A stretch of DNA of 64,000 bases from an uncultured Aquimarina sp. (GTDB taxonomy: Bacteria > Bacteroidota > Bacteroidia > Flavobacteriales > Flavobacteriaceae): the NCBI GenBank assembly GCA_947497175.1, contig CANMFM010000007.1, positions 186,001-250,000 of the forward strand, given 5' to 3'. Below the pieces are notes generated by a model. It made no database searches. It was given only the letters and a program-made list of their open reading frames with translations, and was not told the origin of the DNA. The position numbers were made by a program, and so were the translations under genes. Positions within the stretch are counted from its first letter, which is position 1. Every line of letters begins with the position of its first letter. Positions 4,541-13,326 of this stretch are shown in pieces.

Positions 4541-7438
4541 ATGAACCTGTATGCTTTACTTATCGGAATAAATGAATATGAATTAAGTCCACTAAATCAG
4601 TGTGTTAATGATGTACAAGAATTTGAAAAGTATCTCAATACTCTGAGTAACATTTATGGAACAATTTCGATTGAAAAACTTCTGGATAAAAAAGCTACCA
4701 AAATAAATATCATTACAACTATTACCACCTTTTTGAATAAGGCCAATGATACTGATGTAGCTTTTTTTTATTATAGTGGTCATGGTACCTTAGAAAACAG
4801 TTCTGGTAGATTTAGTGATGTACATACGGGCACAATAGAATGTTTGGTATGTTATCACGATGAGCATGCCAATGAAAATTTTTTATTGGCTGATAAAGAG
4901 TTACGCTATTTATTTTCGAAACTCAAAAATGATCCTCACCTGGTTACTGTCTTTGATTGTTGTCATTCTGGTGATATGGTTAGGTTACTTAGCAATCAAA
5001 CTGACACAACAAATTATAGGCAAAGAAAACTAAGCACTATATTTCCCTCAAGAAAATATGAAGATTTTATTTTCTCTAATGAAATTGATGAAAAACGTAT
5101 TAGGTCATCACAATTATCCTCTTTGATTCCTTATAAAAACTCGGTAAATATTTCGGCATGTCTTTCATCAGAGTCTTCCTGGGAAAATCATAAAGGTGGT
5201 GTTTTTACACGATTTCTTTTGCAACTTTTGAAAGCAAAGGACAGTAATTTACATTATCTGGATATTGCTAAATGGGCAAAAATAAGCTTGAAAGATATTA
5301 CTAGTAAAAAACAAACACCAACAATTAGTGTACAAGGATCAGGAAAAATGGATCATTATAGCCCTTGGCTTCATCTTTATCCCGGTCAACCTCAAATTGA
5401 TCAGGGTCAGATTTTTTACAACAATAAAAATGGTTGGTACTATAATAAGGGCCAGTTGTTTGGTATTAAAGAAGGTGCTAAAATCACTATTCAGATAGAA
5501 AACGATAAAACTTTTACTACAGAGATCATCAAAGTAAGTCTTGAAGATTCTTTAATTGCTGATCCCATAGAATCTGGAATTACATTAGACTTCAAAAAAT
5601 CTTATTCCGTAATTACGGAGACCGTTTTTAACTCATTAGACATTCATATATTCAATCTCGATCAAGATACTCATGCCCAAAAGCATATTACCAACACAAT
5701 AAAGGATATTGTTAATATAAGCATTTCAACGGTAGATAGCGCTGATTTCTTTGTAATCATATTTAATCAAACCGTATATATAACTCTACCTTCTGACGTA
5801 TATCGACCTTTAGCAAAGCAAATAGATCTTTTAAAATTTTCAGAAGAAATTGTACATAAAAGATTAAAAAATCAATTAGAATCCTTAGTAAAATGGAATT
5901 ATTACAGCACCTTAATAAATCCAGACGCAGGCTTCATTGTTATTCCGATTAAAGTTGAAATACAAATTGACGACAGCCAACAATGGATCGATGTAACTAA
6001 TTCTGATCTTGATCTTGAAACCATTCATAATAAGTATACACAAAGTGGCGAGTATTATCAGAAATTTAAAATTAAGGTTTCAAATGTCTCTAATGAAGAT
6101 GTTTTTGTTTCTGCGTTACTTCTAAGTTCTGACATCGCTATTGCAACGGACCTTTTTGATAATATGTCCAAAAAACTTAAGCCACAAGAAGCTGTCCTGT
6201 TTTATGAACATCGTAAAACCCCTCTATCCTATTGGTCATTAGATGCGTATAAAGAAATTTATAACTGGAAACACGATTGGTTGTATTACAAATTCATTGT
6301 AACTAATCAAGAAGACATCACACCGATTATTCCCGATATAGCACAACACCCGCTATCCCCTCCTATTACACATCATGGAAATTTAATGGGACTTGGAGCT
6401 GTAGATGATTTAACTGTAGAGAACAATAAGTGGGATGTTTATACTACCCAGCTTAGACTGCACAATCCTAGCTATAACATTATAGGTGAAAAACTACTCC
6501 AAAATTGGGACTGGTATGCAAATAATGAAATTGTGGCTCCTTTTATAAACTCATTATATACTTCAAAAAGACAAAACGGATTTATTTTTAATACAGTGAA
6601 TCTACCTAATGCCACTGGAGATATAGATGTTAATACACGAAATGTATCTGGATTTAAATTGAAACTTGGTAATTATTTTGATGATAAATGCAGATATCGA
6701 AGATTCAAAAAATCCAAAAAGATGTTCCCGCATTTACCTGTAATTGTTGCTGAAGGAGATTCATGGTTTTTATTTCCCTTTTTGGTGAAAGACACTCTTG
6801 ATTATGTAATGGAAAAATATCCTTTGCGAAGTATTGCTGCTGCAGGAGATGAGATACAAAATTATAGAGATAGCGGTCAACTACTTAAAGAAATAGAACA
6901 CGAACGTCCCCGGTATGTTCTTATTAGCGGCGGTGGTAATGATGTTATAGGTCCGGAGATTGAAGACATTCTTATACCAGGATTAGCCTCTGGATTAGAG
7001 CCCGAAAAGTACTTAAATGAAAAACATAAGAAAAAAATGGATCAACTGTGGGGGCATTACAATTACTTTTTTAACAGAATCTCAGAATTTGATTTTGTAG
7101 AGCATGTATTTATACACGGTTATGATTATGTACTAGCTGATTTGGATAAAAAAACCATTAAAAATGGTTGGGTCAATAAATATTTGATTAAAAAAGGAAT
7201 AACGGTAATAGAAGATCGATCCAAAATAATTCAATATCTCATTGATACTTTTAATACGTTGTTAGAAGATGTTACTCAAAAGCATGCCAATGCCACCTAT
7301 TTAGATATGAGATCCTTAGTTAATAGAGACGAATGGTATGATGAAATACACCCAAATGATGAAGGGTTTGCCAAAGTTGCTCAAAAATTTTTAAACGCTA
7401 TTAATCAATTAGAATATATAGATCATGAGAATATGTAA
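4541..7438 (+). CDS. Caspase-like (C14) peptidase fused to a C-terminal SGNH/GDSL hydrolase domain
   Basis: N-term YALLIGINEY; His81 in FYYSGHGTLE and Cys141 in VFDCCHSGD; C-terminal SGNH blocks GDSW (Ser741), SGGGNDVIG and DEIHPNDEGF. Confidence 0.88.
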   Translation: MNLYALLIGINEYELSPLNQCVNDVQEFEKYLNTLSNIYGTISIEKLLDKKATKINIITTITTFLNKANDTDVAFFYYSGHGTLENSSGRFSDVHTGTIECLVCYHDEHANENFLLADKELRYLFSKLKNDPHLVTVFDCCHSGDMVRLLSNQTDTTNYRQRKLSTIFPSRKYEDFIFSNEIDEKRIRSSQLSSLIPYKNSVNISACLSSESSWENHKGGVFTRFLLQLLKAKDSNLHYLDIAKWAKISLKDITSKKQTPTISVQGSGKMDHYSPWLHLYPGQPQIDQGQIFYNNKNGWYYNKGQLFGIKEGAKITIQIENDKTFTTEIIKVSLEDSLIADPIESGITLDFKKSYSVITETVFNSLDIHIFNLDQDTHAQKHITNTIKDIVNISISTVDSADFFVIIFNQTVYITLPSDVYRPLAKQIDLLKFSEEIVHKRLKNQLESLVKWNYYSTLINPDAGFIVIPIKVEIQIDDSQQWIDVTNSDLDLETIHNKYTQSGEYYQKFKIKVSNVSNEDVFVSALLLSSDIAIATDLFDNMSKKLKPQEAVLFYEHRKTPLSYWSLDAYKEIYNWKHDWLYYKFIVTNQEDITPIIPDIAQHPLSPPITHHGNLMGLGAVDDLTVENNKWDVYTTQLRLHNPSYNIIGEKLLQNWDWYANNEIVAPFINSLYTSKRQNGFIFNTVNLPNATGDIDVNTRNVSGFKLKLGNYFDDKCRYRRFKKSKKMFPHLPVIVAEGDSWFLFPFLVKDTLDYVMEKYPLRSIAAAGDEIQNYRDSGQLLKEIEHERPRYVLISGGGNDVIGPEIEDILIPGLASGLEPEKYLNEKHKKKMDQLWGHYNYFFNRISEFDFVEHVFIHGYDYVLADLDKKTIKNGWVNKYLIKKGITVIEDRSKIIQYLIDTFNTLLEDVTQKHANATYLDMRSLVNRDEWYDEIHPNDEGFAKVAQKFLNAINQLEYIDHENM

Positions 7439-8261
7439 AAATGACATAACGGATCAAATACGAGATTTGTTTGATGCCAATCCGCTTAGAATTCCTGAGG
7501 CAAGAATACAACCCATGTGTATGCTCGAAATACAAGATCATAAACCAAAATATCTTGGAGAGTTCAGGTTTTTGGTCAAAAATGGATTTAACCATCCAAT
7601 TCAGGTAAATACCTCGCCTGTAGCACAAATATCTAATGTAAAAACTAAAAAAATTGATTTCAAAATTGGTTTTGATATTCTGGGTAACTTCATTAAGGCT
7701 TTTGGTTTAGATCCTGCCGCTGTGAGCGCATCGATCAAAGGGACTAAGAAAATGTCGTTTTCTTTCGGTAATGTGGTCAGAAAATATATTGACACCCTAG
7801 AATTAGGTCATATTTTAGTCGCTAATGATATTAAGGGGGATCCAGAAAATATATTTATCAAAGAATTTTCAGAAAAAAAAGAGGTTACGCTGGCGCTAAT
7901 TACTGATATTCTTACAAGTACCGATTTTTCACTTGCTACCTATAAAGACAATACTACAAATGCAGAAATTAATATTCCGCTCATTCAGGAATATTTAGCA
8001 AACCTTGATACTAAACTAACCATCGAAAAGATATCAGATAATGAAATAAAGTTCAAAGGTGATACGCCTCTTACTTATGCATTTACCTGTGTAGAAATTA
8101 ATATAGATCCTACTACTGGAAAATTCTCGAGAGGACAATGGCTTGATAACATTCGTTCGGTTAAAGGTAGTACGACAACGAGTACTGCTACAGAACAGCT
8201 AGAAATACCGAAATTATTGCTTGATGATAATCAAGCAAATCCCTTATTGATTGACTTTTAA
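7425..8261 (+). CDS. Candidate bacterial gasdermin (pore-forming protein)
   Basis: Family-like pattern: N-term Cys4 (MRICKND), RIPEARIQPMCMLEIQ, IDFKIGFDILGNFIKAFG, TKKMSFSFGNVVRKYIDTLELGHIL, LALITDILTSTDFSLATYK, GDTPLTYAFTCVEINID; short C-terminal tail; overlaps a caspase gene by 14 nt. Confidence 0.75.
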   Translation: MRICKNDITDQIRDLFDANPLRIPEARIQPMCMLEIQDHKPKYLGEFRFLVKNGFNHPIQVNTSPVAQISNVKTKKIDFKIGFDILGNFIKAFGLDPAAVSASIKGTKKMSFSFGNVVRKYIDTLELGHILVANDIKGDPENIFIKEFSEKKEVTLALITDILTSTDFSLATYKDNTTNAEINIPLIQEYLANLDTKLTIEKISDNEIKFKGDTPLTYAFTCVEINIDPTTGKFSRGQWLDNIRSVKGSTTTSTATEQLEIPKLLLDDNQANPLLIDF

Positions 8262-8278
8262 CACCTAAACATAAACCC

Positions 8279-10063
8279 ATGAAAGAATTTTTTGTTGGAA
8301 TATTTGAAAATGATGCAGAGGCTCCACTTACATATTTGGATGATGAACGCAAAGCCATCGATGTTCTTTTATTAAAAGAAAAAGAAATATTCAGTAAAGA
8401 GATCATCCTCAATGAAGGTATCGATGGTTTTATTAATAAACTACAATTGTTGACTAATGTAATGACTGTATTTCATTTTAGTGGACATCACAATGACGAT
8501 GATGAAGCTATTAAATTAAGTGATGAAATCTTTAATAACAAAGGCCTTATTGAAATTTTGAATAATGCTCCAAAATTAAAGATGGTTTTCATTAACGGAT
8601 GCTCTAGTCAAAAAATTGTTGATGCCTTACATAACGTGCCTATCGTAATTGGAACCAAAACGCCCGTATATGATCATTTTGCAAAGACATTGTCTAACAG
8701 GTTTTATGAATTACTATTAAATGAGAAAGACAACATCAATACCGCAGAAAAAATTGAATCTATATTCAATCAGGCAAAGGGCTTCCAACAGGGGCATTAT
8801 CAACATGCTGTAACTACAGAAAGAGGCCCGATGGCGGCAGATGATATTGATACTAAAATAAACAACTATAGTTTCAAAATCAATAAAGAAGCACATGATT
8901 TTGAATTAAGGACTATCTATTATCCCGATCCAGATAACTTTCCGGTTAAGAATCGTTTTCAAAACCTGCTCGACGAGATAAAACAAGAAGAAGGTCTTAA
9001 AGAAGATTTGTACAAGTATTATCCCTACTTCTTATGTATTCATTTAGAAATATTATCTGATTTTCATGATATCAATAACAATATTTATCAAGAATTAAGC
9101 AAAGAACGGTATTGGGTGATTCGAAGTATGTTTAAAGAGTTTCTTAATTTTCTTAAATTTTCTGCATACTCTATTATTTGGTCGATATCAAAAAGAGATC
9201 ATAACTTTAGAACCAAACTAAGTAGTCAACTAAAAGAAATTCTCAGAGAAAATCTGGAAATCGGTTGGGAGTCGCATGTACAGGACAAAATTACTGAAGA
9301 TCTTTTTTTTATTTACAAGAATATCCCAGACGAATATCTGATAAAAAATACCCTCTGGGTCGAATTAAAAGCATGTGTTATACAAAATAGAGAATTATTT
9401 AAAGATGTTTCTGATTTTTTCTCATCACACCTGGAGCATAATCAAAATAGTAAACATGAGTATATTAAAACTGAACTTTATCTTGAAAAATTCTTAAGAA
9501 GCTTTACGTTTTTAAGATCCTTAGGTATAGAATCAATCTACGATGTATTCTATAATCAATTTCGATATGATAATCAACGCTCTTATATCATCAATAAATC
9601 GTATTATCCTGTTAGTAAAAGACCAACGGCATTAGATGATAAAAAAAGTGAAATTTTTGAAGTTACCGATAATGAAACCCTTCTAGATATTGATATACAT
9701 TCAGTATATATCTGTACAACCAAAAATAAAACCGGAAAACCTAAAAGGCAATTAAACCTTTCTCCTTTTTATCTTGATGTCAATTCTACATCGGTAGCAA
9801 AAGATAAAATAAAATTGTACTACCTGGATCGTTATTCTGAAGCGACAGAAAAATTAATCTATAAAGAAGTAGTCAATGCTAAAGTAGGAAAAGAAAGCAT
9901 GAATAATAAGAAAAAGTTAGGAGACGAAATTGAAGTGCCGTTAGATGAAGAAATGATTTGGGCCCTACTTAAAGATGGTAAAAAAAATATCATTGAGATT
10001 GAAGAAAAGAAGAAAATACGTGATCATTTTGAATACATAAAGAATTTAATTTCTCATTCTTAA
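8279..10063 (+). CDS. CHAT-like caspase-clan protease with large C-terminal region
   Basis: MTVFHFSGHHND (His70/71) and MVFINGCSSQKIVDAL (Cys108) followed by VPIVIGTKTPVYDHFAKTLSNRFYELLL, typical CHAT pattern. Confidence 0.75.
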   Translation: MKEFFVGIFENDAEAPLTYLDDERKAIDVLLLKEKEIFSKEIILNEGIDGFINKLQLLTNVMTVFHFSGHHNDDDEAIKLSDEIFNNKGLIEILNNAPKLKMVFINGCSSQKIVDALHNVPIVIGTKTPVYDHFAKTLSNRFYELLLNEKDNINTAEKIESIFNQAKGFQQGHYQHAVTTERGPMAADDIDTKINNYSFKINKEAHDFELRTIYYPDPDNFPVKNRFQNLLDEIKQEEGLKEDLYKYYPYFLCIHLEILSDFHDINNNIYQELSKERYWVIRSMFKEFLNFLKFSAYSIIWSISKRDHNFRTKLSSQLKEILRENLEIGWESHVQDKITEDLFFIYKNIPDEYLIKNTLWVELKACVIQNRELFKDVSDFFSSHLEHNQNSKHEYIKTELYLEKFLRSFTFLRSLGIESIYDVFYNQFRYDNQRSYIINKSYYPVSKRPTALDDKKSEIFEVTDNETLLDIDIHSVYICTTKNKTGKPKRQLNLSPFYLDVNSTSVAKDKIKLYYLDRYSEATEKLIYKEVVNAKVGKESMNNKKKLGDEIEVPLDEEMIWALLKDGKKNIIEIEEKKKIRDHFEYIKNLISHS

Positions 10064-10065
10064 TT

Positions 10066-13000
10066 ATGCCACACAGAAAAATCATATCCCCTTTTAAGTT
10101 CCTCGATTCTTATCAAAAAAAGGATTATCACAGCTATTTTGGAAGAGATAAAGAAAGTTTGGCACTCTTTAACCTTTATAAAGATTCGACAATAATGATT
10201 TTGCATGGTCCTTCGGGATCGGGTAAGACGAGTTTAATCTATTGTGGTTTGCTAAATAGAATTAGGGAAGACAAAAAAATAATTAGCATTCGTAGAGATG
10301 ATAACCTTATTAAGTCTATCAAGAAAAAGCTTTTTGTACATTTTGGCGAAGGAAATTGGCCGGGTGATTCACCCTCTAAATTACTAGACGATTTTTATTC
10401 TTCACATTCAGATTTAAACAGAATTCTGGGATTTATTGAGCATATAGAAGCATTAATGCTTGATGTGGAAGAAAAAATAATAGAACGCACTAGAAATAAA
10501 AGAAAGGTTAATCAAACTCAACCAGAACAGTTTACAGAAGCTGAGGCATCAGGCAATAACGAACAAGATGATCAATATATTATCTCAAAATATAAAGAAC
10601 GATTACAAAAATTTAGTTCTGAAAGAAAAGAACTTCTCGGAAAATTAAAGGAAAAGAATGAGCAAATAGGTGACATTTCTGCATCATTAAACAGGTATTT
10701 TACCAATGCCAGGACTAACAATGCTGGTATATCATTTGCCCCGTTAATCATTTTTGATCAGTTTGAAGAACTCTTTGTACACGGTACAAAAAGAGAAATC
10801 GACAAGTTTGGATTGTTCTTAAAGCTACTTTTTAATCATAAAATACCGTTTAATATTATTATATCTCTACGCGAAGAGTATTTTGGGTATCTCGATCAAT
10901 TACAATCTTACATTCCTCATATTTTCTATAAAAAAATACGCCTTGCACATCCAAATAAAGAAAGCATCAAAAATATTATAGAAAAATCATTCCAAAAGTT
11001 TAATATAAATCAATACGTAGGTCGTACGGATGAAAAATTATCTGATATTGAAAAGAATGATAGGATAGAATTAATACTTGATCAAATTAAAATCAAAGAT
11101 CATGGATCCATGAGTTACCACCTTCCTTTTTTACAAGTATATTTGGATCGATTATATAAAATAGATTATTACAGAACGTATGGAGGAGAACATTCTGTAA
11201 AAGAAGATGAAACGCTGCCGCCCCTAGAATTTAAAAAACATGAAATCACAGAATTTGGTTCTATCGAACATGTATTAGAAAGTTATATTCGCGAAATTAA
11301 CAACAAAATCATTCGTAATACCGATAATAAGCTCAATAACAAAATACAACACAAAGACAGTATCATTAAATTTTTAAGACATTTTAAAACTAAAGATGAT
11401 TTAAAAAAAAGAGTGCCTATACAAATTGAAAGAGAAAACTATTATAGCATAGAAAATCAAAAAACTCTTACCAAAATTCAAACAGATATATGGGGAGATA
11501 ATAGCCCGGCATACAATGACACGATTTCAGAAATCATTAATGAACTTAAAGAGAAAGGAATTCTAAGTGTAAATACAGGTTATGCTGAGTTAAGTCACGA
11601 TATTATTGCAAAAGTGATTAGTAACATACGAACTGAAGATGATTTCAGATCTTTAATAAAGAAGGACTTTATTTCTTCTTTTGACATTTATGAAGACACC
11701 AATGATGAGGGTGATTTACTCTCTGCGCAGCAGATTGAACGAATGAAAACGTGTTTGCAGTATTTACTAGAAGACGAAAATACAGAGCTGTGTAATCTTA
11801 AAAAACAATATTACGAAAAAAGTATAGAAAAAAATGAAAGAGACATACGTAATCAAATTAGACAAGAAAGAAAAGTTAAACGCTACACCATCTATGGTGT
11901 TATCACTTTCGGTTTAACAATATTAGCATTTTTATTGACTGGTCAATTACTAAAAGTAAATTTAGAAAAAGATATAATGCACCTGCTTGTCAACGCTAAT
12001 CAAGCATTGAATATTGACAGAACAAGTTCTTTCAACTACATCAAAAAAGCAGAACAGATTTATGAAGCAAAATTTTGGAATTGTATAAAAATGTTCTGTT
12101 CGACAGATGATGAGAAATCAAATAATGAATTTCTTGAAAAAATGAAAACTAAGATATTGAGAGAACATGATCAATATCCATTTTATCAAACAAGCATAAA
12201 CTTGATCGATACGGCTTATACAGTTGAAAGCGATACTATCAAGATGACTAAAACACGGGTGGCTTCAGGAAATCCGGATTTGCTATATATTTTCGCATTA
12301 TCTAAAAATAATAAATTCAATATATGGGAATTAAATTATAAAACTCCAAATGAGAAAGGTAGTACCGTTAGCATTGAGGGAAACGATAATATCGTAAATT
12401 TTGAACCTTTTAATTTTAATAAAGACCTCAACCTTCTTCTTGTTAAAAAGACTAATAATTCCTTATTAGAACTAGGGCTATATGATATCAATTGTAAACA
12501 GATAGAAAATTTTGAGAAGATTGAAATACCTTCTAACAAAATACACGTAGAACATTTAAATGGGAACGTATTTCTTCTTGGGTATGATAACATTATTAAG
12601 AAAGCTACTTTTATAAAAAATGATAAAGCAGCTATAGAATTAATAGATACGTTAGGCGATACTATCCACGAAATAAAGAGTTTAGAAGGTGACAATAATT
12701 TTGCGGTTCGATATGGTACTAACAAAATTTATGTTCAAAGAAACAATACAACCATCAGGAATATATTTGATAAAGAGAGTGAACATGATATAAAAAACAG
12801 GGAAATACTATCTTTTAATAGTAAAAATAAGGACACCCTGCTTATAGGACTGACTCAGGAGATATTAGTATATGACCTAAATGACAATACATCCTACAAG
12901 CATATGGTTCATGATAAAAATATAGAAACCATAGATTTTAACAATAACGGCGATATGCTTATAGGAAATAGAGAAAATGGAATTAATTTATGGACCAATA

Positions 13001-13326
13001 AAAATGTACTTAAAAAACAATTTATTGGTCATAGCGCTCCTGTTTTTAATGTTTCTTTTGTTAAAGTTAAAGAAAATCCAAACTTTGTTATCACAAGTAG
13101 TATCGATCAAACCCTCAAAATTTGGAATATTAAACCCATCCGAAGCAATATTAAAAACCGAATAGATGATTTGGAGTTCAAAAAAGAGGTTACGTCAAGA
13201 GCCATGATACAAGAAAAAATTATAGACACAATGCAGTATAAAAGTGACATTCCTGAGTTTGTATATAATTGGCTATACTATCAAGGTAATAAACTTTCTA
13301 AAAACTCTAACTCAAAAAAACTTTAA
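10066..13326 (+). CDS. nSTAND NTPase with TM helix and C-terminal WD40-like repeats
   Basis: YFGRDKESLALFNLY; Walker A GPSGSGKTS; Walker B-like PLIIFDQFEELF; TM YTIYGVITFGLTILAFLLTG; WD40-like IGHSAPVFNVSFVKVKENPNFVITSSIDQTLKIWNI. Confidence 0.88.
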   Translation: MPHRKIISPFKFLDSYQKKDYHSYFGRDKESLALFNLYKDSTIMILHGPSGSGKTSLIYCGLLNRIREDKKIISIRRDDNLIKSIKKKLFVHFGEGNWPGDSPSKLLDDFYSSHSDLNRILGFIEHIEALMLDVEEKIIERTRNKRKVNQTQPEQFTEAEASGNNEQDDQYIISKYKERLQKFSSERKELLGKLKEKNEQIGDISASLNRYFTNARTNNAGISFAPLIIFDQFEELFVHGTKREIDKFGLFLKLLFNHKIPFNIIISLREEYFGYLDQLQSYIPHIFYKKIRLAHPNKESIKNIIEKSFQKFNINQYVGRTDEKLSDIEKNDRIELILDQIKIKDHGSMSYHLPFLQVYLDRLYKIDYYRTYGGEHSVKEDETLPPLEFKKHEITEFGSIEHVLESYIREINNKIIRNTDNKLNNKIQHKDSIIKFLRHFKTKDDLKKRVPIQIERENYYSIENQKTLTKIQTDIWGDNSPAYNDTISEIINELKEKGILSVNTGYAELSHDIIAKVISNIRTEDDFRSLIKKDFISSFDIYEDTNDEGDLLSAQQIERMKTCLQYLLEDENTELCNLKKQYYEKSIEKNERDIRNQIRQERKVKRYTIYGVITFGLTILAFLLTGQLLKVNLEKDIMHLLVNANQALNIDRTSSFNYIKKAEQIYEAKFWNCIKMFCSTDDEKSNNEFLEKMKTKILREHDQYPFYQTSINLIDTAYTVESDTIKMTKTRVASGNPDLLYIFALSKNNKFNIWELNYKTPNEKGSTVSIEGNDNIVNFEPFNFNKDLNLLLVKKTNNSLLELGLYDINCKQIENFEKIEIPSNKIHVEHLNGNVFLLGYDNIIKKATFIKNDKAAIELIDTLGDTIHEIKSLEGDNNFAVRYGTNKIYVQRNNTTIRNIFDKESEHDIKNREILSFNSKNKDTLLIGLTQEILVYDLNDNTSYKHMVHDKNIETIDFNNNGDMLIGNRENGINLWTNKNVLKKQFIGHSAPVFNVSFVKVKENPNFVITSSIDQTLKIWNIKPIRSNIKNRIDDLEFKKEVTSRAMIQEKIIDTMQYKSDIPEFVYNWLYYQGNKLSKNSNSKKL

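Follow-up and report, generated by a model that had tools for sequence, protein, structure and literature searches.

A caspase-like protease fused to an SGNH/GDSL hydrolase in a bacterial gasdermin operon

Gasdermin is usually described as the executioner of its system and caspase as the trigger, and operons of bacterial gasdermins (bGSDMs) with caspase-like proteases were reportedly described by Johnson et al. in 2022. In an uncultured marine Aquimarina close to A. mytili, the caspase gene that adjoins a gasdermin gene encodes a second putative enzyme, an SGNH/GDSL hydrolase, in the same chain. Why would a trigger carry an enzyme of its own? We addressed this question starting from a stretch of 64,000 nucleotides (contig CANMFM010000007.1, positions 186,001 to 250,000), here called the window, to which all coordinates refer unless another locus is named.

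Domain layout of the fusion protein

The fusion gene (4541 to 7438, plus strand) is a frameshift-free open reading frame that runs from ATG to stop and encodes a single polypeptide of 965 amino acids. The original prediction, made from the sequence alone, had placed a caspase-like protease and an SGNH/GDSL hydrolase in this one chain, and an AlphaFold2 model of the whole protein built with 58 homologues (mean pLDDT 82) bears this out: Foldseek searches of the PDB recovered both caspases/metacaspases (5.5e-12) and the GDSL esterase EstL5 (2.4e-7). The first domain (residues 1-270; 4541 to 5350, plus strand) belongs, by sequence and modelled metacaspase fold, to the caspase (Peptidase C14) family, and proteolytic activity is predicted for it. 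Residues 4-264 match Pfam Peptidase_C14 with 1.7e-26 (93.8 bits against a cut-off of 21.4), and the PADLOC caspase model matches with 1.3e-38, only positions 1-212 of its 453 being covered, by residues 1-332 of the fusion protein. The catalytic dyad lies where it had been placed, with His81 (codon 4781 to 4783) in SGHG (79-82) and Cys141 (codon 4961 to 4963) in DCCHSG (139-144), and both residues are invariant in 58 orthologues. The long beta-rich middle region that had been proposed is present in the AlphaFold2 model (residues 271-620; 5351 to 6400, plus strand). It has no Pfam match; in the loci inspected, a caspase lies on its N-terminal side and an SGNH domain, an alpha/beta hydrolase, or nothing on its C-terminal side. 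The linkers at residues 613-628 and 681-704 are modelled with low confidence.

The C-terminal module (about residues 641-965; 6461 to 7435, plus strand) consists of a short helical pre-domain and an SGNH core (707-957). Profile matches, block residues, and predicted fold identify it as an SGNH/GDSL hydrolase, for which hydrolase activity is predicted. Over residues 764-949, the window protein scores above the Pfam cut-off for Lipase_GDSL (PF00657; 4.2e-5, 24.2 bits against 23.6) and below that for Lipase_GDSL_2 (PF13472; 1.3e-5, 26.2 bits against 32.9), a cut-off that its relatives exceed; in a diverse SGNH alignment, 51 of 51 members match Lipase_GDSL_2, the best with 6.3e-14. Modelled alone, the domain is predicted with confidence (pLDDT 90.7, AlphaFold2), and the modelled fold is nearest to esterases, PAF-acetylhydrolase (PAF-AH), phospholipase A1 (PLA1), and TesA, the top match being EstL5 (5.7e-9; TM 0.73 by target length) and Axe2 a further one. 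With these enzymes it shares the fold and the catalytic blocks, but its identity to the top structural match is at most 17%, it is fused to a protease, and it has its own helical pre-domain. Among the open reading frames of the loci scanned, the pre-domain was seen only together with this SGNH domain, and the idea that it is a general adaptor was rejected. When the SGNH alignment served as a profile against the PDB, GDSL lipases were found weakly, yet on the right motifs; the PDE4D matches of this search (E about 0.04), which fell on a helical stretch, were set aside as spurious.

SGNH blocks I, III, and V had been correctly located at GDSW (739-742), GGGND (797-801), and DEIHP (934-938), to which we add block II with Gly769. 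Ser741 in EGDSWF (6761 to 6763) is the predicted nucleophile, Asn800 (6938 to 6940) the predicted oxyanion-hole residue, and Asp934 and His937 in DEIH (7340 to 7351) would complete the triad. Ser741, Asp934, and His937 are invariant in an alignment of 59 relatives, an invariance that is partly ascertainment because two of the search patterns cover these motifs; Gly769 and Asn800, which lie outside the patterns, are each kept in 58 of the 59. Moreover, all five catalytic-block residues are present in relatives that were retrieved without the motif patterns (loci L003-L005 and plasmid relatives). Within Aquimarina, the SGNH module is the best-kept domain of the fusion, at 72-91% identity, compared with 61-82% for the caspase and 52-79% for the middle region. 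These conservation patterns indicate that both enzyme domains are under selection for their catalytic residues. No SGNH relatives were found in phage records.

The operon and its chromosomal setting

The fusion gene is the first of four genes, followed by those for a bacterial gasdermin, a CHAT protease, and an nSTAND1-WD40 protein. The gasdermin that the original prediction had assumed as a partner is encoded directly downstream (278 amino acids; 7425 to 8261, plus strand), its start codon lying inside the end of the fusion gene with an overlap of 14 nt. It matches NCBIfam prok_gasdermin (1.3e-61; 207.9 bits, cut-off 100), PADLOC bGSDM (3.2e-63), and the PDB entries 8sl0 and 7n51, and has an N-terminal cysteine (Cys4) and a conserved C-terminal tail behind a variable linker. 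Acylation of the gasdermin is likely, because the N-terminal cysteine is invariant in all 25 of the 25 linked gasdermins. The CHAT-type protease (594 amino acids; 8279 to 10063, plus strand) is recognized by PADLOC (chat, 9.4e-56), with no Pfam CHAT match and no PDB match, so that the gasdermin gene has a caspase gene upstream and a CHAT gene downstream; a Pfam search found no trypsin among the four gene products. The predicted sensor is an nSTAND1 ATPase with C-terminal WD40 repeats (1,086 amino acids; 10066 to 13326, plus strand; nSTAND1 1e-23 and WD40 in Pfam). A scan for promoters and terminators gave results no better than shuffled sequence.

By its gene content, the operon has the features of a bacterial gasdermin system, namely a bGSDM with an N-terminal cysteine and a short C-terminal tail, adjoining caspase and CHAT proteases, and a STAND ATPase, and it may serve in phage defence by cell death. 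What sets it apart from bGSDM operons is the SGNH hydrolase fused to the caspase. A sensor of NLR/STAND type, a protease, and a gasdermin are also shared with the CARD-NLR gasdermin systems of Lysobacter, in which phospholipases or endonucleases can stand in for gasdermin (PMC13236601). Those systems, compared here without regard to CARD, have a trypsin-like protease instead of caspase and CHAT, whereas in the window gasdermin occurs alongside a hydrolase that is part of the caspase chain.

In 10 other Aquimarina species, these four genes sit at the chromosomal position that they have in the window. All 10 have the OmpA, lipoprotein, MFS, and M48 genes upstream, and 9 of the 10 have the GH31 gene downstream, locus L045 having no GH31 match; gasdermin was found in 10 of the 55 genomes of the genus sample. 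At this fixed locus, identity between Aquimarina species falls from 59-81% in the N-terminal part of the nSTAND1 protein to just 32-38% in its C-terminal WD40 part, and such a hypervariable end is what a fast-evolving sensor would be expected to show. In two Aquimarina genomes, the operon is present a second time in divergent form (L050, 2964 to 12312; G416:C79 and G446:C28), with 39% identity to the window in the caspase-SGNH protein and 47-49% in the gasdermin.

Recurrence, loss, and exchange of the SGNH module

Scanning 84,980 species genomes yielded 376 relatives of the SGNH module, and the counts of architectures refer to the 80 whose loci ranked as most similar to the window protein. Caspase, middle region, and SGNH domain are joined in one open reading frame in 75 of these best 80, across 70 or more Bacteroidota genomes. 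Among more distant relatives, the order is reversed in Alphaproteobacteria (SGNH-caspase in Sinorhizobium, Rhizobium, and Palleronia), and elsewhere the SGNH domain forms a fusion with a trypsin (L004) or adjoins an EAD1-trypsin gene (L005). Because the fusion recurs so widely in Bacteroidota and the pairing takes other orders and partners elsewhere, we consider it meaningful and no accident; the architectures indicate that the pairing of SGNH and protease arose through independent fusions, in several domain orders and with several partners. Caspase, trypsin, EAD, and YLATT genes surrounded by exchangeable effectors are likewise a feature of the effector-associated STAND/protease conflict systems surveyed by Kaur et al. 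2020 (PMC7159879); a word search of that paper found neither SGNH nor GDSL and located lipase solely in the title of a cited work. The literature searched contained no description linking SGNH/GDSL domains to caspase, gasdermin, STAND, or phage defence, which is weak evidence because the primary gasdermin papers lay outside the search; the caspase-SGNH fusion is apparently a recurrent, undescribed variant. On a Rhizobium plasmid (L033, 5863 to 9267), a stand-alone SGNH gene directly precedes a fusion of trypsin with a DNA/RNA non-specific endonuclease.

The fusion does not depend on gasdermin. A gasdermin gene lies within 1.5 kb of the caspase-SGNH gene for 24 of 76 scored proteins, and an adjacent one is absent from 45 of the 69 loci that had adequate flanks for scoring. 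The linkage changed at least 6 times on a tree of the relatives, a quick tree with long branches. Four genomes that are 99-100% complete and have the module (G190, G372, G178, and G203) yielded no gasdermin with the NCBIfam model, such negative calls being those of profile searches; the catalytic residues of the SGNH module are retained in genomes where gasdermin was not detected. Runella aurantiaca (L070) has an amidase-caspase-SGNH protein that is gasdermin-free. Mutual exclusion of amidase and gasdermin was considered and dropped, as their association on the tree was not significant.

Conversely, the gasdermin operon can do without the SGNH domain. In Aquimarina genome G420 (L132, 9475 to 11544, minus strand; G420:C12), the caspase-middle protein has 689 amino acids and stops where the SGNH module would start; its gene lies 45 nt before an intact gasdermin gene whose product retains Cys4, and CHAT and STAND genes are in place. 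This SGNH-minus allele offers a ready natural comparison. The same locus has an extra CHAT-TPR gene (1299 to 2822) after the STAND gene.

Finally, the SGNH domain can be exchanged. In caspase-middle paralogues of Dyadobacter and Larkinella, an alpha/beta-hydrolase lipase with the motif AHSMGG takes its place at the C terminus, matching DUF7379, LCAT, and PGAP1 in Pfam and bacterial lipases in the PDB, with weak matches to palmitoyl-thioesterases as well; the loci with this exchange are gasdermin-free. Two such genes (L056, 15265 to 18483, plus strand; L058, 11160 to 14549, minus strand) share their loci with an amidase-caspase-middle-SGNH gene. At L048 (15136 to 19455, plus strand), which also has a caspase-SGNH gene, the hydrolase-like C terminus reads AEDIGG in place of AHSMGG; judging from this motif, the exchanged hydrolase has apparently lost its nucleophile and may be an inactive version.

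Candidate roles of the SGNH domain

The original prediction had offered two roles for the hydrolase: a double attack by protease and lipid or ester hydrolase, or a brake that deacylates the gasdermin. Comparative genomics favours the former, with the lipid substrate, the order of activation, release or activation by proteolysis, and the antiphage role as its conjectural parts. The counter-evidence that the prediction had named was not encountered, the SGNH fold being predicted with confidence and the catalytic residues being retained in orthologues. We see about an even chance that the window encodes a gasdermin-type abortive-infection operon in which the SGNH domain is an accessory ester or lipid hydrolase effector acting on membrane or envelope lipids. 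The STAND-WD40 protein would sense an invader and, together with the CHAT protease, activate the caspase, which would cleave the C-terminal tail of the gasdermin and so open pores. The SGNH domain would be a second effector, a serine hydrolase of phospholipase or lipase type that digests membrane or envelope lipids upon caspase activation or cleavage of the linkers. The fusion would thus put SGNH and caspase under one switch, and lipids or other envelope esters seem the simplest account of the SGNH target. A membrane-lipid substrate is suggested mainly because the SGNH domain is exchanged with a lipase fold; the SGNH fold itself leaves the substrate unfixed, because its structural neighbours include acetylxylan esterases, sialate esterases, and PatB. 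The recurrence of the pairing with caspase, often without gasdermin, suggests that programmed death in bacteria has a second arm, which digests membrane or envelope.

The companions of the module, judged by their domains, are other cell-destroying enzymes, which fits an effector role: a peptidoglycan amidase (Amidase_2) is N-terminal in the same chain in 28 of the best 80 of the 376 relatives, CHAP or peptidoglycan-binding genes lie beside the module in Alphaproteobacteria, and Endonuclease_NS also occurs. The two wall-directed companions could also point to a cell-wall esterase, similar to peptidoglycan O-acetylesterases, which would prime the wall for attack by an amidase or another muralytic enzyme, in a lysis scheme resembling that of holin and endolysin. 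Such a role would agree with the amidases and lysozymes found, beside caspases and phospholipases, around bGSDM genes, for which the holin-endolysin analogy has been drawn (PMC9612521), and with PatB and Ape1, which appear among the lower-ranking structural neighbours. However, the operon of the window has no wall hydrolase, the exchange partner has a lipase fold, and Ape1 ranks far below the best structural matches, which are ordinary esterases, PAF-AH, and PLA1; we regard a wall substrate as unlikely. The domain might instead act on some other ester, of a glycan, a capsule, a signalling lipid, or a small molecule, and modify the dying cell or phage adsorption and not the membrane. The broad substrate range of SGNH enzymes and the acetylxylan and sialate esterases among the matches agree with this, but it would leave unexplained why an alpha/beta hydrolase of lipase type can take the place of the domain, and we hold it to be quite improbable.

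The proposed brake would be a thioesterase that strips the acyl group from the N-terminal cysteine of the gasdermin, as a brake or a regulator. There are grounds for it in the invariance of that cysteine, in the occurrence of thioesterases such as TesA among SGNH enzymes, and in the finding that acylation helps bGSDM pore formation (PMC9612521). Yet a dedicated deacylase is disfavoured: one would not expect it to persist, catalytic residues intact, in genomes where no gasdermin was detected, or to be dispensable in G420, where the cysteine is retained, and it does not accord with the lipase swap in gasdermin-free loci. We therefore think a dedicated brake very improbable; gasdermin deacylation could still be a side activity of the domain. 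Least credible of all is a scaffold or regulatory role without catalysis. The loss in G420 and the apparently missing nucleophile at L048 might suggest such a role, but it is hard to reconcile with the near-complete retention, in divergent relatives, of the five catalytic-block residues, Asn800 and Gly769 outside the search motifs included, in the best-conserved domain of the fusion.

Returning to the second-effector reading, the trigger here bears its own enzyme, in a pairing that recurs in different domain orders and persists without gasdermin. Should the SGNH domain attack lipids, a lipase arm would belong to bacterial caspase systems, and a modular set of amidase, caspase, SGNH or alpha/beta lipase, and gasdermin would give a testable account of how all envelope layers are dismantled. 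As in phage holin-endolysin lysis (PMC9612521), a pore former, a wall amidase, and a lipid hydrolase would together hit every layer; this is an analogy only, with no common descent, and the window has no amidase. More tentatively, and with a little less than even confidence, we propose a class of protease-linked lipases, in which caspases or trypsins with an SGNH module (or an alpha/beta lipase) would serve as executioners with or without gasdermin, one polypeptide opening gasdermin pores and dissolving the membrane, and the wall too if an amidase is fused.

Some relatives have further domains. A C-terminal CHAT-like extension follows caspase, middle region, and SGNH domain in L054, L055, L060, L068, L069, and L073, giving a chain with two caspase-like proteases and one hydrolase. 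In L089 (8045 to 13075) and L097 (8048 to 13075), the fusion continues into an MPAB/rubber-oxygenase domain and DUF5995, with a gasdermin gene upstream; Pfam was run on L089, whose layout L097 shares. L047 (8548 to 13568) encodes a protein of 1,673 amino acids (cut) with two caspase domains, leucine-rich repeats, the middle region, and a partial SGNH domain.
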